From NCBI GenBank assembly GCA_030066905.1, contig JASJAR010000013.1:1-64000 (forward strand): a DNA stretch of 64,000 nt, given 5' to 3'. Positions 23,555-35,194 of this stretch are shown one piece after another. The position numbers and the translations under genes are program-made. Every line of letters starts with the position of its first letter. Position 1 is the stretch's first letter. The stretch comes from Paracoccaceae bacterium (GTDB taxonomy: Bacteria; Pseudomonadota; Alphaproteobacteria; Rhodobacterales; Rhodobacteraceae). The notes under the pieces were generated by a model that saw nothing but the letters and a program-made list of their open reading frames with translations, was not told where the DNA came from and did no database searches.

Positions 23555-24925
23555 CTAAACCGCCGCCGCCTGACTGCGCGCCTGACGACGGGCGGTGAGT
23601 TCCTCGGCCACGAGAAACGCAAGTTCCAGCGACTGAGAGGCGTTGAGCCTCGGGTCGCAGGCGGTATGGTAGCGGTCCGAAAGGTCCTCTTCCGTGACCG
23701 CCCGGACCCCGCCGGTACATTCGGTGACATCCGCCCCCGTCATCTCGAAATGCACGCCGCCGGGGATTGTCCCTTCCGCGCCGTGGACCTCGAAGAATTC
23801 CCGCACCTCGCGGAGCACGCTGTCGAAGGGCCGGGTCTTGTAGCCGGTTGCCGACTTGATGGTATTGCCGTGCATCGGGTCGCAGGACCAGACCACCTCG
23901 GCACCTTCTTCGCGCACCGCCCGGATGAGCCGCGGCAGATGCTCGCCCACCGTCCCCGCCCCGAAGCGCGCAATCAGCGTCAGCCGCCCCGCCTCGTTCT
24001 CGGGATTGAGCTTCTCCATCAGCACCTTGAGGTCGTCGGCCGTCGTGGTCGGCCCGCATTTCAGGCCGATCGGGTTTTGCACCCCGCGGGCGAACTCGAC
24101 ATGGGCGCCGTCCGGCTGGCGCGTGCGGTCGCCGATCCAGATCATATGACCGGACCCTGCGAGCCATTGACCCGAGGTCGAATCGAGCCGGCAGAGGGCT
24201 TCTTCGTACTCCAACAGGAGCGCCTCGTGGGAGGTGTAGAACTCCACGCTCGAGAATTCATGCGTCGTCGCCCCGTCGATACCGGCCGCCGCCATGAAGT
24301 CGATTGAATCCTGGATGCGGTTGGCGATGTCGCGGTAGCGCGCGGCATCCTCGGCATCGGTGAACCCAAGCGTCCACGAATGCACCCTATGCATGTCTGC
24401 AAAGCCACCCGTGGAAAAGGCCCGGATGAGGTTCAGTGTGCCGGCGGCCTGGGTGTAGGCCTGGAGCATCTTTGCCGGGTCGGGGTTTCGCGCTGCGGCG
24501 GTAAAGTCGAGCTCGTTGACGATGTCGCCCCGGTAGGACGGAAGTTCCACCCCGTCTTTCACTTCGGTCGGTGCCGAGCGCGGCTTGGCGAACTGCCCCG
24601 CCATCCGGCCGACCTTTACCACCGGAACCTTGGCGCCGTAGGTCAGAACCATCGCCATCTGGAGCATGACCTTGAAGGTGTCGCGGATCTGGTCGGCGTT
24701 GAAGGCGGCAAAGCTCTCGGCGCAATCGCCCCCCTGTAGGAGGAACGCCTCGCCGCGCGCGGCGGCCGCAAGCTCGTGGCGCAGCCGGCGCGCCTCACCC
24801 GCGAACACCAGCGGCGGATAGCTCGAAAGGCGAGCCTCGACGCCCTCGAGGGCCGCAGCGTCGGCATAATCGGGCATCTGCACCCGCGGCTTGTTGCGCC
24901 AGTCGCTCTTCGTCCAGTCGCCCAT
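23555..24925 (-). CDS. class II 3-deoxy-7-phosphoheptulonate (DAHP) synthase
   Basis: A 456-aa enzyme condensing phosphoenolpyruvate with erythrose 4-phosphate, first step of the shikimate pathway. The ATG at 24925 ([20 protein letters not shown]) follows [22 protein letters not shown] (metal Cys), [21 protein letters not shown]-type [10 protein letters not shown], and [10 protein letters not shown] are class II (plant/AroH-type) motifs. It is divergent from the GlxA-type regulator. Confidence 0.95.
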
Positions 24926-25020
24926 GGGTCTTTCCCTTTCGCGCGGCATCGCGGATCACGTCTATAGGGGAGGGCCGGGGCCTTGAAAACCGCCAATTGC
25001 GCGCGATCCGCGGTCATCTG

Positions 25021-25078: not shown

Positions 25079-26086
25079 ATGCAGAAGATCGTTGGACCCG
25101 TGAGAATGCGTCCCGGGGACGGCGCCCGCCCCCGGCGCTTCGTCTTCGTGCTGCTCGACAACTTCACCATGCTCTGCTTCGCCTGCGCGGTCGAAAGCCT
25201 CAGGATCGCCAACCGCCAGTCGGGCCGGACGCTTTACGAGTGGATCACGGTCGGCGAAGGGGGCGACACGGTCTCCTGTTCGGCCGGTATCACCTACAAG
25301 CTCGACGCGGGGCTCGGCGAGCTGTCCCGCGACGACACCATCGTCGTCTGCGGCGGGATCGACGTCGCCTCGGCCTCGACGAGAACGATGCTCGGCTGGC
25401 TGCGTCGGGAAGCCCGCAAAGGCGCGGCCGTCGGCGGGCTCTGCACCGCGGGCTGGACGCTGGCGCGGGCGGGTCTTCTCGACGGCAAGCGCGCCACGAT
25501 CCACTGGGAAAACCATGACAGCTTTCTTGAGGAGTTCCCGGATGTGGACCTGACCAAATCGGTCTTCGTGATGGACGGCAACCGCTTCACCACCGCCGGG
25601 GGGACCTCCTCGATCGACCTGATGCTGAAGGTGATCTCGGACGATCACGGCGAGGAACTCGCCTCCGAGGTCGCCGACCAGCTCATCTACACGACCATCC
25701 GGACCGACCAGGACACCCAGCGGCTTTCGGTACCCACCCGGATCGGCGTGCGGCACCCCAAGCTCGCCCAGGTCATCCAGATGATGGAGGCGGCCATCGA
25801 GGAGCCGATCTCCCCGGCGATACTGGCCCGCGATGTCGGCCTCTCGACGCGCCAGCTCGAACGGCTGTTCCGGCGCTATCTCAACCGGTCCCCGAAACGC
25901 TACTACATGGAGTTGCGGCTCCAGAAGGCGCGCAACCTCCTGATGCAGACCGACATGAGCGTGATCAACGTCGCCCTGGCCTGCGGCTTCACGAGCCCGT
26001 CGCATTTCTCGAAATGCTACCGGGCCCATTACAACACCACCCCGTACCGCGAACGCGGCGCCCCGCCCCAGCGGCTTTCGGTGTGA
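25079..26086 (+). CDS. GlxA family AraC-type transcriptional regulator
   Basis: A 335-aa regulator. Residues ~20-190 form a DJ-1/PfpI-like domain (FVFVLLDNFTMLCFACAVES, VGGLCTAGWTLARAGLLDGK, FTTAGGTSSIDLML). Residues ~230-325 form the AraC double helix-turn-helix (LARDVGLSTRQLERLFRRYL, VALACGFTSPSHFSKCYRAH). The close GlxA-family relatives I know are GbdR-like regulators of choline/glycine betaine or arginine catabolism; no target genes adjoin, so the inducer is open. Confidence 0.9.
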   Translation: MQKIVGPVRMRPGDGARPRRFVFVLLDNFTMLCFACAVESLRIANRQSGRTLYEWITVGEGGDTVSCSAGITYKLDAGLGELSRDDTIVVCGGIDVASASTRTMLGWLRREARKGAAVGGLCTAGWTLARAGLLDGKRATIHWENHDSFLEEFPDVDLTKSVFVMDGNRFTTAGGTSSIDLMLKVISDDHGEELASEVADQLIYTTIRTDQDTQRLSVPTRIGVRHPKLAQVIQMMEAAIEEPISPAILARDVGLSTRQLERLFRRYLNRSPKRYYMELRLQKARNLLMQTDMSVINVALACGFTSPSHFSKCYRAHYNTTPYRERGAPPQRLSV

Positions 26087-27437: not shown

Positions 27438-28634
27438 ATGAAACGGTTCTTGTTGGCAACGACCGCCGCTGTGCTGGCCGGGGGCGGCGCACAGGCGGGC
27501 GGACACGCAAGCGACATAACGATGGGGGTCCTTCTGGGCTTCACCGGCCCGGCGGAATCGCTGGCGCCCGACATGGCCGCCGGCGCGGAAGCCGCGATGG
27601 CCGAGGTCACCGAAAGCGGGCTCCTGCTCGGGGGTATCAGCGTCACTCCGACCCGGGGCGACTCGACCTGCATCGACGCCGCCGCGGCAACTGCGGCCGC
27701 CGAACGGATGATTACCTCCGAAGGGGTCGCCGGGATCGTCGGCGCGCTCTGTTCGGGGGCGACGGGTGCTGCGTTCCAGAACGTCGCGCTCGCCAACGGA
27801 ATGGTGATGATCTCGCCCTCGGCAACCTCGCCGGGCCTCTCCACCATCGAGGACAACGATCTATTCTTCCGCACGGCCCCGTCGGACGCGCGCCAGGGCG
27901 TTGTGATGGCCGAGATCCTTCTCGAGCAGGACATCACCGAGGTCGCGGTCACCTACACCAACAACGACTACGGCAAGGGTCTGGCCGACAGTTTCGAGGC
28001 CGCCTATGCCGAGCGCGGCGGGACGGTGACGATCAACGCCGCCCATGAGGACGGCAAGGCCGACTACTCGGCCGAAGTCGGCGCGCTCGCCTCCGCCGGC
28101 GGCCAGCGGCTCGTGGTCGCGGGGTATCTCGATCAGGGCGGCCCCGGTATCATCCAGGCCGCGCTCGATGCGGGCGCCTTCGACACGTTCCACCTGCCCG
28201 ACGGGATGATCGGCGATTCGATGCAGGAGCGGTTCGGCACCGACATCGAAGGATCGACCGGTCAGGTTCCGGGCACCGACAGCCCCGGGGCCGCGCTGAT
28301 GGGCGAACTCGGCGAAGCGCGCGGCTTCAACGGCACCGGCCCCTTCGCGCCGGAAAGCTACGATGCCGCCGCGCTGATCATGCTGGCGATGCAGGCCGCC
28401 GATTCGACCGACCCCAACGTCTACAAGGGCAGCGTGATGGATGTCGCGAACGCGCCGGGCGTCAAGATCTATCCCGGTCAGCTTGCCGCAGGGCTCGCCC
28501 TTCTCGCCGCCGGCCAGGAGATCGACTATGTCGGCGCCTCGGCCGTCGAACTGATCGGCCCGGGCGAGAGCGCCGGCGCCTACCGTCAGATCGAAGTGAT
28601 CGACGGGGTCATCACCACCGTCGGCTTCCGCTGA
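27438..28634 (+). CDS. branched-chain amino acid-type ABC transporter substrate-binding protein
   Basis: A 398-aa periplasmic protein. The signal peptide MKRFLLATTAAVLAGGGAQA is followed by ITMGVLLGFTGPAESLAPDM, the LivJ/Leu-binding family start. ITSEGVAGIVGALCSGATGA, VTYTNNDYGKGLADSF and FAPESYDAAALIML are further family blocks. It supplies the transporter encoded downstream (28710-35194). A 12-bp hairpin follows its stop. The ligand is probably an amino acid or related small molecule but cannot be read from the sequence. Confidence 0.92.
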   Translation: MKRFLLATTAAVLAGGGAQAGGHASDITMGVLLGFTGPAESLAPDMAAGAEAAMAEVTESGLLLGGISVTPTRGDSTCIDAAAATAAAERMITSEGVAGIVGALCSGATGAAFQNVALANGMVMISPSATSPGLSTIEDNDLFFRTAPSDARQGVVMAEILLEQDITEVAVTYTNNDYGKGLADSFEAAYAERGGTVTINAAHEDGKADYSAEVGALASAGGQRLVVAGYLDQGGPGIIQAALDAGAFDTFHLPDGMIGDSMQERFGTDIEGSTGQVPGTDSPGAALMGELGEARGFNGTGPFAPESYDAAALIMLAMQAADSTDPNVYKGSVMDVANAPGVKIYPGQLAAGLALLAAGQEIDYVGASAVELIGPGESAGAYRQIEVIDGVITTVGFR

Positions 28635-28709: not shown

Positions 28710-29489
28710 TTGATCGTCGTCGAAGACGTGCACAAACACTTCGGGGGTTTTCATGCCGTCGACGGTGCGAGCCTCGAGATCGCCGAAGGGTCGATCACCG
28801 GGCTCATCGGCCCGAACGGTGCGGGAAAAACAACCCTTTTCAATGTGATCGCGGGCAATCTTAAGCCGACATCGGGACGGGTGACGATGGCGGGCGAGGA
28901 CATCACCGGCCTGCCGCCGCATGCGCTTTTCCACAAAGGGCTTTTGCGCACCTTTCAGATCGCCCACGAATTTTCCTCGATGAGTGTCCGCGAGAATCTG
29001 ATGATGGTGCCGGGGCAGCAATCGGGCGAGACGATCTGGAACGCCTGGGTTGGGCGTCGCCGGATCGCCGAGGAAGAACGGGCGCTGTCGCAGAAAGCCG
29101 ACGAAGTTCTTGAATTCCTGACGATAGATCACCTTGCAGGCGAACGCGCAGGCAATCTTTCGGGCGGCCAGAAGAAGCTTCTGGAGCTCGGGCGCACGAT
29201 GATGGTCGATGCCCGCATCGTCTTTCTCGACGAGGTCGGCGCCGGGGTGAACCGCACGCTTCTCAACACCATCGCCGACGCCATCGTCCGGCTCAACCGC
29301 GAGCGCGGTTATACCTTCTGCGTCATCGAGCACGACATGGACTTCATCGGCCGGCTCTGCGACCCGGTGATCGTTATGGCCGAGGGCAAGGTGCTCGCCG
29401 AGGGCACAATCGACGAGATCAAGGCCGACGAACAGGTGATCGAGGCCTATCTCGGGACGGGTCTGAAGAACAAGGCAACGGCCTCGTGA
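28710..29489 (+). CDS. branched-chain-type ABC transporter ATP-binding protein (LivG-like)
   Basis: A 259-aa ABC ATPase. The start is TTG with GGGGA upstream (MIVVEDVHKHFGGFHAV). Walker A is GPNGAGKTT, the signature LSGGQKKLLELGRTM, and Walker B VFLDEVGAGVN, where the usual LDEP is LDEV, a LivG-subfamily variation. CVIEHDMDFIGRLCDPVIVM holds the H-loop. It overlaps the next gene by 4 nt (GTGA). Confidence 0.93.
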   Translation: MIVVEDVHKHFGGFHAVDGASLEIAEGSITGLIGPNGAGKTTLFNVIAGNLKPTSGRVTMAGEDITGLPPHALFHKGLLRTFQIAHEFSSMSVRENLMMVPGQQSGETIWNAWVGRRRIAEEERALSQKADEVLEFLTIDHLAGERAGNLSGGQKKLLELGRTMMVDARIVFLDEVGAGVNRTLLNTIADAIVRLNRERGYTFCVIEHDMDFIGRLCDPVIVMAEGKVLAEGTIDEIKADEQVIEAYLGTGLKNKATAS

Positions 29490-30172
29490 GGGCGAAAATC
29501 GCCTGTCTGCACCCTGTCGGCTATCTGTCGGCTATTTGTATGGCACTTGTGCTGGCACCGCCCGCGGCGCGCGCCGAGACGCCTCCCCCGCCCGCTGCGA
29601 AGTTCGTCGGCGTCGGCGATCGCAGCGACCGCAATTTCCGCGAGGTGTTCCAGCCGAGCGGCTGCCGCAAACTGTCGGAGAACCTCGGCATCTGCCTTGA
29701 GGGGTCCGGCCTGACGGTCGAGGAGAGTCGCGCGATGGGTCGCGACCGGCTTGAGACCTACCGTCTCGACGACACCCGCACCGCCGCCCTGCGAAGCGTC
29801 TTTCTCGACTTCGGGACGGCGGTGAAGCTGTCGGCCGAGGAAACCGAAACCTATATCGAGCACCACATCTTCGACGCTGCCCCCCACGGGGTCCGGGTGC
29901 GCGAGGAGATCCTCGACGAGGTCCGGTCGCCCGTGAGGGGGATCCTCGTGCGACAGGCCGTCATCGCGCGGCGGACGGACGGCCAGCGGAGCCTTCTGAA
30001 ATTCTCGGTTTTCCGGATGCAATACGGACTCGGCCTCGTCGAAACCTCGATTGCCCTGCCGGAGGTAGATGACGGCACTTCCCATGGACCGGGCCTTGCG
30101 GAACTCGAGGCTTATCACGCGGAGTTTCTCGAGATCGTGCGCCACTCCATCAACGTCGGGCCGGGATATTGA
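29486..30172 (+). CDS. exported hypothetical protein inside the ABC transporter operon (228 aa)
   Basis: Starts at GTG overlapping the previous stop. Residues 1-~31 form a signal peptide (YLSAICMALVLAPPAARAE). The mature part includes FQPSGCRKLSENLGICLEGS with two Cys, then FLDFGTAVKLSAEETETYIE and LVRQAVIARRTDGQRSLLKF. It ends one base inside the next ATPase gene start (TGATG). I do not recognise the family. Tight coupling on both sides argues for a role with the transporter, in the periplasm. Confidence 0.75.
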   Translation: MRAKIACLHPVGYLSAICMALVLAPPAARAETPPPPAAKFVGVGDRSDRNFREVFQPSGCRKLSENLGICLEGSGLTVEESRAMGRDRLETYRLDDTRTAALRSVFLDFGTAVKLSAEETETYIEHHIFDAAPHGVRVREEILDEVRSPVRGILVRQAVIARRTDGQRSLLKFSVFRMQYGLGLVETSIALPEVDDGTSHGPGLAELEAYHAEFLEIVRHSINVGPGY

Positions 30173-30885
30173 TGGCCGAACCCTACCTCATCGGTGACGC
30201 CATGACCGGCGGCTACGGCACGGGCGCCGACATTCTCCACGATTGCACCATCGCGGTGAACGAAGGCGAGATCGCGGTGATCGTCGGGCCTAACGGGGCC
30301 GGCAAATCGACCGCCATGAAAGCGGTCTTCGGGATGCTGAACCTGCGCCAGGGCGCCGTGCGCATCGGGGGCAAAGACATCACCCGTCTCTCGCCCCAGG
30401 CCCGGGTCGCCGAGGGCATGGCTTTCGTGCCGCAAACATCGAACATCTTCACCTCGATGAGCGTCGAGGAAAATCTCGAGATGGGCGCGTTCCTGCGCCG
30501 CGACGACATCCGCGGAACGATGGAACAGGTTTACGACCTTTTTCCGATCCTCCGCGAGAAGCGCCGCCAGAAGGCCGGCGAGCTCTCCGGCGGCCAGCGC
30601 CAGCAGGTCGCCGTCGGCCGGGCGCTGATGACCCAGCCCAAGGTCCTGATGCTCGACGAGCCCACCGCCGGGGTCAGCCCAATCGTAATGGACGAGCTCT
30701 TCGACCGGATCATCGAGGTCGCCCGCACCGGCATCTCGATCCTGATGGTTGAGCAGAACGCCCGCCAGGCGCTCGAGATCGCCGACAAGGGCTATGTGCT
30801 CGTCCAGGGCCGCAACGCCTTCACCGATACCGGCGCTGCGCTTCTTGCCGACCCCGAAGTGCGGCGGAGTTTTCTCGGCGGATAG
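30172..30885 (+). CDS. branched-chain-type ABC transporter ATP-binding protein (LivF-like)
   Basis: A 237-aa second ATPase. Walker A is GPNGAGKSTAMKA, the signature is LSGGQRQQVAVGRALM, Walker B is VLMLDEPTAGVSP, and the LivF-typical H-loop segment is ISILMVEQNARQALEIAD. The ATG at 30172 overlaps the upstream stop. It pairs with the LivG-like protein to drive the LivH/LivM-like permeases encoded 2 kb downstream. Confidence 0.93.
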   Translation: MAEPYLIGDAMTGGYGTGADILHDCTIAVNEGEIAVIVGPNGAGKSTAMKAVFGMLNLRQGAVRIGGKDITRLSPQARVAEGMAFVPQTSNIFTSMSVEENLEMGAFLRRDDIRGTMEQVYDLFPILREKRRQKAGELSGGQRQQVAVGRALMTQPKVLMLDEPTAGVSPIVMDELFDRIIEVARTGISILMVEQNARQALEIADKGYVLVQGRNAFTDTGAALLADPEVRRSFLGG

Positions 30886-30949
30886 CCCCCCGGCGCATGC
30901 CCGCCGGAAGGCGGAGGTTCACACCGCGGCCGCTGCCCCGGCCCCGGCG

Positions 30950-31279
30950 TCATTCGTACCGGCTGTCGATCGCAATCACCGTGCCGTCCTCCATGACGAT
31001 CTCGCGGGCGTAGATCTCGCGCCCGATAAGGTCGCCTTCGAGAAACCCGGTGACTTCGACCTTCTGGCCGAGATCCAGCGCGACGGGCTGGGGTCCGAGA
31101 TAGACGCGGACCGATCCGGTCTCGTCGGTGAGGCGGATCTCGTCCTCATCGTGGAAACGCTCGACCGTTCCGGCGACGGTGACCGGCTGGTTGCGCGGAA
31201 GATCTGCGATGGCGGTGACGTCGGCAAAGGCCGGCGTGGCGAGCGCGGTAAGGGCAACGAAGGTCAGAGTCGAACGCAT
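30950..31279 (-). CDS. YgiW/YdeI-type OB-fold (BOF) periplasmic protein
   Basis: A 109-aa exported protein. The ATG at 31279 follows AAGGAGAAACTTC and gives a signal peptide MRSTLTFVALTALATPAFA. The mature part (DLPRNQPVTVAGTVERFHDE, DEIRLTDETGSVRVYLGP, QKVEVTGFLEG) is the bacterial OB-fold family linked in enterobacteria to stress tolerance. It is oppositely oriented and splits the transporter locus. Confidence 0.85.
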   Translation of the reverse strand: MRSTLTFVALTALATPAFADVTAIADLPRNQPVTVAGTVERFHDEDEIRLTDETGSVRVYLGPQPVALDLGQKVEVTGFLEGDLIGREIYAREIVMEDGTVIAIDSRYE

Positions 31280-31687
31280 GAAGTTTCTCCTTGGAGCGTG
31301 ATGGTGGAAGTGACCCCGAGATGGGGACCTGCGGACGGCGTTCAACGGCATGTGAGCCTCGATCCGCCCCCGGAGTGGTTTTGCTGACGCAAATGTTATC
31401 AAGATTGGCTCGCACCGGCCCACGACCGCCGCCCGACCATGCGTCCGACACGCCTCCTGCCCGCCGAATGCTCAGAAAACGCCCTTCGAAGGCGCGATGC
31501 TGGCATTCTCGCCACAGGCCCCGCAGTCAAATCGCCGCGCCTGAGTAACTCCTTCTTTACCGACGCGCGTCGGCTCCCGTTCAATTGCCGAAACGCGCGC
31601 GGATTCGCGTGTCGATCACAGCGCCCCGCCGAGGGCTGCCGCACCAGAAAGGGGCATGGGACCAAGACGCTGACAGAGGAGTAATCG
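31280..31687. other. 408-nt gap within the transporter locus
   Basis: No convincing gene. Near 31385-31410 an AT-richer stretch reads, on the minus strand, TTGATAACATTTGCG and could be promoter DNA for the YgiW-like gene. On the plus strand the last 20 nt carry a good Shine-Dalgarno (AGAGGAG) for the gene at 31688. The short frames here are Arg/Pro-rich and not protein-like. Confidence 0.5.
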
Positions 31688-32083
31688 TTGGCCCTATTCG
31701 CATTGCTGACCTCCTTCGCCATGGCTGGCGGGGACGGTATCGCTTGTACGTTCTCCGGCGACGACCGCGCGGATCCGGTGCTCACCGTCACCCTCGAACC
31801 CGTACCAAGCCTGAAGGACCGCCCCGGTCTCTACCGGGTCATGATGGTCGTCGAGGGGGCCAAGGTCCGCGCCAATGCCCAGCCAATCGCCGCCACGGTG
31901 GAGCCTGACGTGATGATCCGCGCGAAGGCGGGCGCCGAGACATACTACACAATCGGGTTGCGTGAAGACGGCGCGGCCGCGCTCCATGTCGCCCATTCGG
32001 GGGCCGGGCGCACGCTCACCGGCCGGTGCCAGCGCCATGAACCCTGGTTTCCGGGCTGGCTCCACGAGCGCGGGCCCCGTTGA
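31688..32083 (+). CDS. small exported hypothetical protein 1 (131 aa)
   Basis: Start TTG eight nt after AGAGGAG. The N-terminus MALFALLTSFAMAGG is a short signal peptide. The mature domain is beta-rich (DPVLTVTLEPVPSLKDRPGL, YRVMMVVEGAKVRANAQPIA, EPDVMIRAKAGAETYYTIGL) with two Cys (residues ~20 and ~113), compatible with one disulfide. Its stop overlaps the next start (TTGA). First of three small periplasmic proteins translated in relay before livH. Family not recognised. Confidence 0.7.
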   Translation: MALFALLTSFAMAGGDGIACTFSGDDRADPVLTVTLEPVPSLKDRPGLYRVMMVVEGAKVRANAQPIAATVEPDVMIRAKAGAETYYTIGLREDGAAALHVAHSGAGRTLTGRCQRHEPWFPGWLHERGPR

Positions 32084-32463
32084 GACCGGTCGCCCGGTTC
32101 ATCGCCGCCGCCCTTCCGGCCCTTGCGGCGACGCCAGCCACAGCCGACCTCGCCTGCCGCTTTGACACCGAATGCCTCGAAGGCGAGGCCTGCATCGAGA
32201 GTGGCTTCCGCCTCACCGTGGAGACCGGGATTGCCCCCGGCACGCTGTTTGCCGAAGGCGGCTATCCCATCGGCGACAGGATCGTGACCGACGCAGAGAC
32301 CGTCGAAGTGGTCTGGCGCGCGCGCGAACCCTGGCTTGCAGCCTTCGGTGCCTCCGCCTCGGGCTTTCATTTGCTCACGTTTGACGCCACCGGGGCGGCG
32401 CGCTACACGGCCCATCTGCCGGGAGCGGGGTTGTCGATGCTCTATGTGGGGGCCTGTGAATGA
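32080..32463 (+). CDS. small exported Cys-rich hypothetical protein 2 (127 aa)
   Basis: TTG start overlapping the previous stop. Signal peptide to about residue 22 (ALAATPATA). The mature start DLACRFDTECLEGEACIESG has three Cys (C-x5-C-x5-C), with a fourth near the C-terminus (VGACE). Beta-rich middle (EVVWRAREPWLAAFGASASG). Ends by overlapping the next ATG. The N-terminal Cys pattern resembles that of the following protein, suggesting distant paralogy. Family not recognised. Confidence 0.7.
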   Translation: MRPVARFIAAALPALAATPATADLACRFDTECLEGEACIESGFRLTVETGIAPGTLFAEGGYPIGDRIVTDAETVEVVWRAREPWLAAFGASASGFHLLTFDATGAARYTAHLPGAGLSMLYVGACE

Positions 32464-32876
32464 AGTGGATCGGACTGCTGTTTCTGTCCGCCCTGCCCGC
32501 CAGTACAGCGGTTCTGCCCGGATCGCCGCCATGGCTTTGCAGCCCCGCCGCCGCCTGCTCGCCTGACGATTGTCTCGCCCTGCCGACGAACCTCGCGCGG
32601 TTCCGGGTCGATCCGAGCCCCGAACACCCGCATCTCTACGTCACGTCCACGCTCGGCGAGGGTCAGACGCATCTGGCACCCCAACCCTCCCTCGCCGCTG
32701 CCGCGACCTGGCTCAGGGAGACAGAGGACAAGATCGCCGCCATCCTCGTCGCCACCGATTTCGCCACCCATGTCGACGACTACGCCCTCTACTCGGTGGT
32801 CAAACACGCCGACGGCGTATGGCGGATGAACGGGGACCACCTCATCCTCCTTTGCGGCCCCGAAGGCGACGGCTGA
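32460..32876 (+). CDS. small exported Cys-rich hypothetical protein 3 (138 aa)
   Basis: ATG overlapping the previous stop (ATGA). Signal peptide MKWIGLLFLSALPASTA. The mature start PWLCSPAAACSPDDCLALPT has C-x5-C-x4-C, like protein 2, followed by NLARFRVDPSPEHPHLYVTS. The middle has a helix with ATWLRETEDKIAAILVATDF. Its stop is directly followed by the livH ATG (TGAATG), so all three small proteins and the permeases are translationally linked. Confidence 0.7.
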   Translation: MKWIGLLFLSALPASTAVLPGSPPWLCSPAAACSPDDCLALPTNLARFRVDPSPEHPHLYVTSTLGEGQTHLAPQPSLAAAATWLRETEDKIAAILVATDFATHVDDYALYSVVKHADGVWRMNGDHLILLCGPEGDG

Positions 32877-33887
32877 ATGGACCTTCTCAACGCCCTCGTC
32901 GCGCTTGCGAACTTCGTCCTCGTCCCGGCGATTTCCTACGGCGCCCAGCTTGCCCTCGGTGCGCTTGGGGTCACGCTGGTCTACGGCATCCTGCGGTTCT
33001 CGAACTTCGCCCATGGCGACACGATGGCCTTCGGCACCATGGTCACCATCCTCGTCACCTGGGCGCTTCAGGGGTGGGGTGTGAGCCTCGGACCGCTGCC
33101 GACCGCGCTCCTTGCCCTGCCCGTCGGCATCGCGGCCACCGCGCTTCTCGTCCTCGGCACCGACCGGTTCGTCTACCGGTTCTACCGCGTGCAGAAGGCG
33201 GTCCCGGTGATCCTTCTGATCGTCTCCATCGGGGTGATGTTCGTGCTCAACGGTCTCGTGCGGATGATCATCGGCGTCGATGACCAGCGTTTCGCCGATG
33301 GCGAGCGCTTCGTGATCTCGGCGCGTACCTTCCGGGACATGACCGGGCTTCAGGAAGGCCTGGCGATCCGCACGACGACGGTTCTGACCGTGGTCGTGGC
33401 GATCATCGTCGTCGCCGCCCTGTTCTGGTTTCTCGAAAGGACCCGCACCGGCAAATCGATGCGCGCCTTTTCCGACAACGAAGACCTCGCCCTTCTGTCG
33501 GGCATCAACCCCGAGCGCGTCGTCGTCATCACCTGGCTCATCGTCGCAGGGCTCGCAACGGTCGCCGGGGTCCTTTACGGGCTCGACAAGTCGTTCCGCC
33601 CCTTCACTTATTTCCAGCTCCTCCTGCCGATCTTCGCCGCCGCCATCGTCGGGGGCTTGGGAAACCCCGTCGGCGCGATCGCAGGCGGCTTCGTCATCGC
33701 GTTTTCGGAAGTCGGCATCACCTATGCCTGGAAGAAGGTCGCCGATTACATCCTGCCCGAGGCGTTGCAACCCGACGGGCTCGCCCAGCTTCTCTCGACG
33801 GACTACAAGTTCGCGGTCTCCTTCATGATCCTCGTCGTGGTGCTGCTCATCAAGCCCACAGGGCTTTTCGCGGGGAAGGCGGTATGA
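32877..33887 (+). CDS. branched-chain-type ABC transporter permease (LivH-like)
   Basis: A 336-aa inner-membrane permease with about eight transmembrane helices. ALGALGVTLVYGILRFSNFA near the N-terminus and the loop RTRTGKSMRAFSDNEDLALL, followed by SGINPERVVVITWLIV, are family signatures. PIFAAAIVGGLGNPVGAIAG is the conserved C-terminal block. Overlaps LivM by 4 nt. Confidence 0.93.
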   Translation: MDLLNALVALANFVLVPAISYGAQLALGALGVTLVYGILRFSNFAHGDTMAFGTMVTILVTWALQGWGVSLGPLPTALLALPVGIAATALLVLGTDRFVYRFYRVQKAVPVILLIVSIGVMFVLNGLVRMIIGVDDQRFADGERFVISARTFRDMTGLQEGLAIRTTTVLTVVVAIIVVAALFWFLERTRTGKSMRAFSDNEDLALLSGINPERVVVITWLIVAGLATVAGVLYGLDKSFRPFTYFQLLLPIFAAAIVGGLGNPVGAIAGGFVIAFSEVGITYAWKKVADYILPEALQPDGLAQLLSTDYKFAVSFMILVVVLLIKPTGLFAGKAV

Positions 33888-35194
33888 ACCCGGTCCTCCG
33901 CAACACGCTGCTCTTTGGCGCCATGGCGGCCCTCCTTCTGGCCACCGGCTTTCTGCAATCGTGGAATGTCGCGCTGACGGTTCTCCAGATGGGGCTCATT
34001 TCGGCGATCATGGCCCTCGGCGTGAACATCCAGTGGGGCTATGCGGGGCTTCTGAACGTCGGCGTGATGGGTTTTGTGGCCATCGGCGGTCTGGCGGCCG
34101 TGCTCGTCGCGGCCCCGGTGGACCGCGAGGCGCTTTCGGCCGGCGGGCTCGGCCTCGTCGTGGCGCTCCTGGCGGGGGCGGCGACCATCTTCGCGGCGAT
34201 CTGGGCCTGGCGGCGGCTCCCGAAAGGCTCGGTCCGGGGCCTCGCCGTGATCGCGATCCTCGCGATCGGCTATTCCATCTACCGCTCGCTCTTCGATCCT
34301 GCCCGGGACGCCGTCGAGGCCATCGAACCCGCGCTTAGGGGCAATATCGGGGGGCTCGGCGCGCCGATCATGCTTGCCTGGCCCCTTGGCGGCGTCCTCG
34401 CCGCCGGCGCGGCCTGGGTTGTCGGCAAGACCGCCCTTGGCCTCCGCTCGGATTATCTCGCCATCGCTACCCTGGGGATCTCCGAGATCATCATCGCGAT
34501 CCTGAAGAACGAGGACTGGCTTGCCCGCGGGGTGAAGAACGTCATCGGCCTTCCCCGCCCCTATCCCGTTCCCTACGAGATCGACCTCCAGCAGGACCCG
34601 GCCTTCGTCGAGCGCGCCGCCGGGCTCGGCCTCGACCCGGTCTCCGCCTCCACCCTTTGGGTCGACGTGCTCTACACGGCGATCTTTCTTGCGGTCCTCC
34701 TTGTCCTCCTCTGGCTCTCCCAGGCCGCGCTCGCCTCCCCCTGGGGGCGGATGATGCGGGCGATCCGCGACAACGAGACGGCCGCCGAAGCCATGGGCAA
34801 GGACGTCACGGGGCGGCACTTGCAGGTTTTCATTCTGGGCTCGGCCGTCCTCGGCATCGCCGGCGCGATGATGGTCACCCTCGACAGCCAGATCACGCCG
34901 GCCAGCTACCAGCCCCTGCGGTTCACGTTCCTGATCTGGGTGATGGTCATCATCGGCGGGTCGGGGAACAATTTCGGTGCCGTGCTCGGCGGCATGCTGG
35001 TCTGGTTCCTGTGGGTCCAGGTCGAGGCGCTGGGGCCCCTCGTCATCGACTGGGCCACGTTCTGGATGGGCGAGGGCTCGGCCCTCCGGGCCCATCTCAT
35101 CGACAACGCCGCCCAGATGCGGCTTCTGGTGATGGGGGTGATCCTTCTTGTGGTGCTGAGGTTCTTCCCGCGCGGGCTGATCCCCGAGCGGTGA
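33884..35194 (+). CDS. branched-chain-type ABC transporter permease (LivM-like)
   Basis: A 436-aa permease, longer than LivH, with ~10 helices. MALGVNIQWGYAGLLNVGVM, RSDYLAIATLGISEIIIAIL, and MRAIRDNETAAEAMGKDVTG are the LivM signatures; WVMVIIGGSGNNFGAVLGGM is the final conserved block. It forms the translocation channel with the LivH-like protein. Its stop overlaps the next gene (GTGA). Confidence 0.93.
   Translation: MNPVLRNTLLFGAMAALLLATGFLQSWNVALTVLQMGLISAIMALGVNIQWGYAGLLNVGVMGFVAIGGLAAVLVAAPVDREALSAGGLGLVVALLAGAATIFAAIWAWRRLPKGSVRGLAVIAILAIGYSIYRSLFDPARDAVEAIEPALRGNIGGLGAPIMLAWPLGGVLAAGAAWVVGKTALGLRSDYLAIATLGISEIIIAILKNEDWLARGVKNVIGLPRPYPVPYEIDLQQDPAFVERAAGLGLDPVSASTLWVDVLYTAIFLAVLLVLLWLSQAALASPWGRMMRAIRDNETAAEAMGKDVTGRHLQVFILGSAVLGIAGAMMVTLDSQITPASYQPLRFTFLIWVMVIIGGSGNNFGAVLGGMLVWFLWVQVEALGPLVIDWATFWMGEGSALRAHLIDNAAQMRLLVMGVILLVVLRFFPRGLIPER

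Follow-up and report, generated by a model that had tools for sequence, protein, structure and literature searches.

Lineage-restricted families of predicted exported proteins at two junctions of a Liv-type importer operon

A 64,000-nucleotide stretch of contig JASJAR010000013.1 from a Paracoccaceae bacterium (hereafter the window; G000:C23:1-64000, from a 3.69-Mb genome in 55 contigs) carries an ABC importer operon of the branched-chain amino acid (Liv) type, in which four open reading frames (ORFs) for small, putatively exported proteins, here named A228, B131, C127 and D138, lie among the ATPase and permease genes (Table 1). Comparison across relatives showed that two junctions of this family-wide operon, LivG-LivF and LivF-LivH, host lineage-restricted families of exported-type proteins which, as estimated from their sequences, diversify and turn over fast and are under purifying selection. 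By the same comparisons, the window holds one firm member of a four-Cys family (C127), one member of a 'PSLKD' subfamily (B131) and two orphans (D138 and A228). We tentatively read the inserts as dispensable, diversifying periplasmic accessory proteins whose expression is tied to an amino-acid-type importer, a reading to which we give somewhat less than even confidence.

The importer has the composition of the HAAT/Liv type, that is, a Peripla_BP_6 substrate-binding protein (SBP), two ABC ATPases and two BPD_transp_2 permeases in one locus, each scoring above its Pfam gathering score. NCBIfam equivalog models for Liv and Urt systems matched it with scores under their curated cut-offs. The solved structures nearest to the SBP are leucine/isoleucine/valine-binding proteins, so the substrate is likely of amino-acid type. 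A LivH orthologue (E ≤ 1e-60) was found in 178 of 198 genomes of the window's family, one genome per genus. 137 importer stretches holding LivH were fetched. The full set of five genes is present in 136 of them, without exception in the order SBP-LivG-LivF-LivH-LivM. Gaps of at least 250 nt occurred at 77 LivF-LivH and 33 LivG-LivF junctions, twice at LivH-LivM and never at SBP-LivG (n = 136).

The 137 stretches include 24 fetched for matches to the four-Cys family (family 1, described below). The other 113 loci (the window plus two sets of relatives, of 60 and 52) were hand-picked down the ranked LivH list and are not random, the 52 having been chosen after the genome-wide family-1 results (profiles A1 and A3) were known. 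Among these 113, 54 have an enlarged LivF-LivH junction and 22 an enlarged LivG-LivF junction; 17 belong to both groups, and 54 have neither junction enlarged. A script judged an ORF to be exported in 52 of the 54 enlarged LivF-LivH junctions and in 17 of the 22 enlarged LivG-LivF junctions; a few hold something else. Of the 52 loci with exported-type ORFs in LivF-LivH, 32 have the final one overlapping LivH or stopping no more than 20 nt from it. Two LivF-LivH inserts of 76-82 aa (L094:7269-7499 and L175:7250-7498, with LivH on the plus strand) have two hydrophobic stretches by eye and are unlike families 1 and 2, and in one genome (L058) a 204-aa ORF lacking a clear signal peptide occupies the LivG-LivF junction.

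Family 1 was gathered by iteration from C127 over the gap ORFs of 60 loci, giving 40 ORFs. Its alignment A1 (21 rows) has four invariant Cys, which are C26, C32, C38 and C126 of C127, and a nearly invariant Y and G directly ahead of the last one. C127 itself (C-x5-C-x5-C) matched a profile of 113 other members, signal peptides removed, at E 2.4e-17 with an hhalign probability of 98.1, and on this comparison we regard it as a firm member. When the 47 members of the larger alignment A3 were scanned singly against Pfam and NCBIfam, no match recurred, each listed family being that of one member only; the four-Cys family is so far undescribed.

Genome-wide searches placed family 1 mostly at the importer. 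Across the 198 genomes, A1 (E ≤ 0.01) gave 57 matches in 50 genomes, 51 of them at the importer, or 30 of 36 once the profile's own 21 rows are subtracted; positions were compared by hand with those of LivH and unclear cases checked. The six others lie in G084 (two), G122, G132, G196 and G057. A3 (47 rows, E ≤ 0.001) gave 84 matches in 66 genomes, with 73 at the importer by hand tally (33 of 38 after subtraction of 46 profile rows), one of the 73 (in G158) being on a contig that stops short of LivH. Its 11 matches elsewhere are in G084 (two), G122 (two), G144, G196, G104 and G132, with weak ones in G023, G174 and G057 (E 2e-4 to 6e-4). Against the window's own genome, A1 found C127 only at E ≤ 10.

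Within the importer stretches, a family-1 hidden Markov model (E ≤ 0.01) gave 140 matches in 71 of 137 loci, with up to seven copies in a single locus. All were on the operon strand: 135 in LivF-LivH, three in LivG-LivF, two in LivH-LivM and none elsewhere in the stretches. This profile was built partly from the same loci; a fairer test is offered by 51 later loci unused for it, in which 25 matches in 19 loci all fell in LivF-LivH. In an order-level sample, family-1 matches were present in 58 of 196 genomes and 35 of 88 genera, and in each of 20 regions taken from it for a family-1 match, not for LivH, the importer is present and the match occupies one of the slots. A class-level sample of 240 genomes returned the window's own match only (none in the other 239). 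L131:8126-8506 and L133:8367-8747 are the sole family-1 copies found in a LivH-LivM junction.

The other two LivF-LivH ORFs of the window relate to family 1 less directly. The B131 subfamily has a PSLKD-like stretch, and its profile A2 had six matches in the 198 genomes (three of them profile rows, three not), all directly upstream of LivH. B131 is without the four-Cys scaffold and has two Cys in its mature part. Its inclusion in the iterated family-1 profile was weakened once it was held out and signal peptides were removed, as its match to a profile built without it (E 0.017) lies inside the range of shuffled controls. The six-member subfamily profile compared with family 1 gave an hhalign P of 0.0014 and a probability of 17, versus at most 0.6 in 15 column shuffles, which is suggestive of a distant link.

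D138 carries exactly four Cys (27, 33, 38 and 132), one of them C-terminal. An earlier note on this DNA had seen a shared N-terminal C-x5-C-x4/5-C pattern in two of the ORFs, and this is what C127 and D138 (C-x5-C-x4-C) have; when the mature part of D138 was shuffled 20000 times, such a pattern arose in 74 cases. The more general C-x5-C-x3-8-C near the N-terminus was present in 119 of 129 family-1 proteins, 9 of 27 other LivF-LivH ORFs and none of 35 LivG-LivF ORFs. Against a family-1 profile built without it, D138 had no match up to E 10 and an hhalign probability of 0.4; its match to A3 at 1.4e-6 is by construction, D138 being an A3 row. Single-sequence searches with D138 found its own copy only in the 198 family genomes, and searches with D138 and with C127 in the genome contigs found nothing.

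The LivG-LivF junction of relatives holds a different family (family 2) of about 155-235 aa with two invariant Cys, also undescribed so far. Its profile A4 gave 18 matches in 15 of 198 genomes, the window's genome not being among them at E ≤ 0.001. 17 of the 18 are in the LivG-LivF junction (5 of 6 minus 12 profile rows), as placed by position, with G037 and G154 checked and G022 and G064 placed on coordinates only; the remaining match (G018:C1) is weak, at E 1.8e-4. No mutual relation between families 1 and 2 was detectable with hhalign. An apparent family-2 membership of A228 (E 3.5e-5) weakened to E 0.13 once signal peptides were removed; this value, for the mature part against a profile built without A228, is inside the shuffled controls. 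The hhalign comparison (P 0.013, probability 3.3 versus at most 0.3 in 15 shuffles) is suggestive of a relation. The link to a Liv-type importer that the earlier note proposed was thus specific for the four-Cys family (51/57), the B131 subfamily (6/6) and family 2 (17/18), and the test it offered, whether homologues lie mostly away from transporters, was run and found otherwise for all three.

Within the window, the four signal-peptide ORFs of 228 aa and 127-138 aa that had been noted at these coordinates were borne out, a hydropathy script predicting a hydrophobic, signal-like N-terminus on each. Their stop/start junctions with one another and with the importer genes also stand: GTGA at LivG/A228, TGATG at A228/LivF, TTGA at B131/C127, ATGA at C127/D138 and TGA-ATG at D138/LivH. 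Coupling throughout, as the earlier note had it, does not hold, because a minus-strand gene that it missed lies between LivF and B131; B131 is therefore not coupled to LivF and the four ORFs are not one coupled run. This gene divides the set into SBP-LivG-A228-LivF and B131-C127-D138-LivH-LivM, the latter probably being a separate transcription unit. Its product matched BOF (PF04076) at E 0.0013 (19.2 bits versus 25.8) and stress_OB_fold at E 1.1e-5 (25.6 versus 35), both below the curated cut-offs, and had no tblastn match over 60 relative loci. The description of the set as unrecognised was right in that none of the four ORFs has a Pfam match at E up to 1, and that the sole NCBIfam row, C127 to flagellin at E 0.062, is taken as chance; as far as sequence comparison can tell, the four are not one demonstrable family.

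The absence of a database family, and of a clear homologue for D138 and A228, would suit spurious open frames in a G+C-rich genome, an explanation that we find scarcely credible. The third-codon G+C of the four ORFs is 0.78-0.81, with importer genes at 0.78-0.90 and three antisense rival frames at 0.69-0.71; this gene-like composition, unlike that of the antisense frames, counts against it, as do the conserved Cys scaffold, the end-to-end overlaps and the purifying selection in relatives.

That selection was estimated from ratios of nonsynonymous to synonymous substitution (dN/dS) in four sets of close relatives, three of which had usable pairs. The median was 0.28 over 104 within-genus insert pairs (reciprocal best, >45% identity, usable dS), with single pairs reaching 0.90; over 36 locus pairs, the importer proteins had 0.05 (SBP), 0.06 (LivG), 0.07 (LivF), 0.08 (LivH) and 0.17 (LivM), all these ratios being rough, given non-independent pairs, numerous dS values above 1 and an identity filter that removes the fastest pairs. 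By this measure, the inserts are real, constrained and faster-evolving than the importer, and dN/dS gave no sign of gene-wide positive selection in them. Mapped onto a 112-importer tree, the LivF-LivH insert state needs a minimum of 34 changes, and supported branches force 23 of these. Shuffled labels gave a mean of 37.4 changes, between 62 and 75 of 500 shuffles needing no more than observed, and the insert state is nearly random relative to the importer tree. Across the 112 loci, inserts were in both junctions in 16, in LivG-LivF alone in 5, in LivF-LivH alone in 37 and in neither in 54 (Fisher p 0.004).

Another explanation is that the inserts act as a shield or decoy, keeping toxins or phages from hijacking the permeases' periplasmic side (or the SBP) as an entry receptor. 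Their fast change, tandem copies and frequent loss would then reflect an arms race: genus-level presence and absence is near random on the importer tree, up to seven copies occur, and dN/dS is several times that of most importer proteins. ABC permeases have a precedent as toxin entry proteins in Burkholderia GltJK in contact-dependent inhibition (PMC9291907). Against a shield stand the median dN/dS, well under 1, and LivH and LivM, which are not faster in insert-bearing lineages, and we judge this explanation quite improbable. No toxin or phage is known to us to exploit this importer, no search for one having been made. The wider proposal, in which the junctions would be a diversification site where at least two periplasmic families, with no relation detected between them, are repeatedly duplicated, rewritten and lost because they guard the importer's outer face against hijackers (toxins, phages or antimetabolites), we hold to be a rather remote prospect.

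The accessory reading would work as follows. Translation coupled with that of the ATPase and permease genes would let the inserts be made together with the importer, and Sec would export them. In the periplasm their Cys would pair, in family 1 possibly linking the first and last strands. The small domain, rich in beta structure, would act at the importer's outer face, or on the ligand or the SBP. The role would be that of an optional modulator, not of a subunit needed for uptake. This reading is favoured by the presence in one operon of two families with no relation detected between them, the few copies elsewhere and the stop/start overlaps with the permease gene. Fixed junctions and descent alone could hold genes in place, so location alone is no proof of a functional link.

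Several results weigh against an accessory role. Neither junction is enlarged in 54 of 113 importers. The association between LivG-LivF and LivF-LivH inserts was not upheld on independent pairs (median p 0.22), and SBP, LivH and LivM showed no faster evolution on the ATPase-scaled terminal branches of insert-bearing than of insert-free loci (p 0.24, 0.55 and 0.59). At E ≤ 1e-60, no LivH was found in G122 or G144, two genera that still keep family-1 genes directly behind a GlxA-type regulator. G084 has a tandem family-1 pair behind a TRAP transporter (DctQ, DctM), its importer (L052) having small gaps, and in G196 a family-1 copy lies between DAHP synthase and a MobA-like gene, with the importer (L053) elsewhere and again with small gaps. 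Family membership of A228 and D138 is unproven, no clear homologue having been found for either, and the structural models of C127 and A228 are both below useful confidence.

Behind the GlxA-type regulator, G122 has three and G144 two small exported-type ORFs, of which the family-1 profile matches two and one, respectively; for the SBP these genomes offer no more than a 42% and a 38% match, respectively, in a differently ordered operon. These distant Liv-type operons (L211:644-5380 and L212:2832-7517) have the order LivG-LivF-LivH-LivM-SBP. The tandem family-1-type genes behind the GlxA-type regulator in these two genera are at L109:6111-8314 and L148:5467-7353. At the TRAP transporter locus (L108:3411-6434), DctQ and DctM are directly followed by the two tandem family-1 proteins, one of which resembles, by eye, a copy in L059. 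A solitary family-1-related subfamily occurs in G104, where it adjoins a resolvase gene, and in G132, and a 42% relative of it is on a Bradyrhizobium plasmid (L207), about 2.4 kb from a resolvase-type recombinase; the subfamily, which may be mobile, is at L111:262-636, L144:5551-6054 (resolvase neighbor) and L207:5001-5369. Plasmid searches with two family-1 proteins (from L080 and L108), B131 and one family-2 protein (L158) gave no match, nor did a phage search with an L113 protein.

The importer-free, TRAP-side and solitary copies weigh against an obligate partnership and for a different explanation, that the inserts are passenger genes with a periplasmic function of their own (e.g., binding or inhibiting something), parked in the operon for its expression and making no contact with the importer. 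The importers without an enlarged junction and the lack of co-acceleration in the importer proteins fit this too. On the other hand, the operon has taken in two families between which no relation could be detected, each keeping largely to one junction, and the majority of genome-wide copies are found there, with the caveat that part of this junction fidelity can be descent plus tandem duplication. We consider passengers unlikely, if a serious alternative to accessory proteins.

A substrate-delivery complex, as the earlier note suggested, or other required subunits of the importer would be consistent with the location and the translational coupling. This is very improbable and already contradicted as a general rule: nearly half of the sampled importers (54/113) do without an enlarged junction, the same-type operons examined in Paracoccus, Rhizobium and Shinella have no genes between the five, insert state has changed at least 34 times, some inserts persist without the importer, and SBP, LivH and LivM do not run faster where inserts are present.

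Modelled from its sequence alone, C127 is predicted to be mostly beta and to have some eight strands (mean predicted local distance difference test [pLDDT] 52, predicted template modeling score [pTM] 0.47). Compared with known folds, the model loosely resembled small beta-barrels (avidins, phenolic acid decarboxylases and others), the leading VIA alignments having Z of 7 to 9.4, and the best Foldseek E was 0.044; we treat the likeness to a calycin-like (avidin/lipocalin-type) barrel as a lead. Cys26 is in an early strand of this weak model and Cys126 in the last, which is the origin of the proposed closing disulfide. Searched against solved structures, A1 gave two matches only, at E 0.4 and 0.47. 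The A228 model was discarded (mean pLDDT 36.6).

Upstream of the importer, the window has a class II DAHP synthase and a GlxA-type transcriptional regulator, the latter a candidate regulator. A DAHP synthase match lies upstream in at least 84 of the 137 stretches, and a GlxA match is present in 90, some stretches ending too early to show one.

Table 1 Features of the importer locus in the window
Feature	Coordinates	Strand	Description
Class II DAHP synthase	23555..24949	-	DAHP_synth_2, E 6e-209; context, marks the conserved locus
GlxA-type transcriptional regulator	25079..26086	+	DJ-1/PfpI plus AraC HTH (HTH_18, HTH_AraC, DJ-1_PfpI); context
SBP, LivJ/LivK type	27438..28634	+	Peripla_BP_6, E 4.5e-27
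LivG-type ATPase	28710..29489	+	ABC_tran and BCA_ABC_TP_C
A228	29486..30172	+	228 aa; exported-type orphan, LivG-LivF slot; no Pfam/NCBIfam match
LivF-type ATPase	30169..30885	+	ABC_tran; ATG at 30172 also possible
Gene between LivF and B131	30950..31279	-	Small exported OB-fold-like (BOF-like) protein; interrupts operon, convergent
B131	31688..32083	+	131 aa; exported-type 'PSLKD' subfamily, LivF-LivH slot
C127	32080..32463	+	127 aa; four-Cys exported family (family 1); held-out HMM, four invariant Cys
D138	32460..32876	+	138 aa; exported-type orphan with family-1 Cys scaffold
LivH-type permease	32877..33887	+	BPD_transp_2, E 3.7e-39
LivM-type permease	33884..35194	+	BPD_transp_2, E 6e-31

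These results bring to light undescribed families of exported proteins, linked for the most part to a single widespread type of nutrient importer, and they replace the loose label of 'hypothetical proteins in an operon' with a pattern that can be tested, namely fixed junctions, fast turnover and related genera with and without inserts. If the inserts do tune or guard the importer, ABC importers would have an optional periplasmic layer that is absent from current models. A literature search found no title or abstract on such inserts, which is weak evidence, many journals being outside its coverage. Among known families, DUF3157 (PF11355) matched one of 24 family-2 proteins (E 0.0049), the other 23 having no match to it at E ≤ 0.01. 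Like the LivJ/K-LivHMGF (HAAT) importer, that of the window has one Peripla_BP_6 SBP, two ABC ATPases and two BPD_transp_2 permeases; unlike it, the window importer has the order SBP-G-F-H-M and two junctions that receive genes for exported-type proteins. The same five genes in the same order are found in Paracoccus ferrooxidans CP038202, Rhizobium etli pRetNXC12d and Shinella sp. PSBB067, where no genes are annotated between the five and the gaps are too small for one. As in the window, the P. ferrooxidans operon has a DAHP synthase and an annotated GlxA family regulator upstream.

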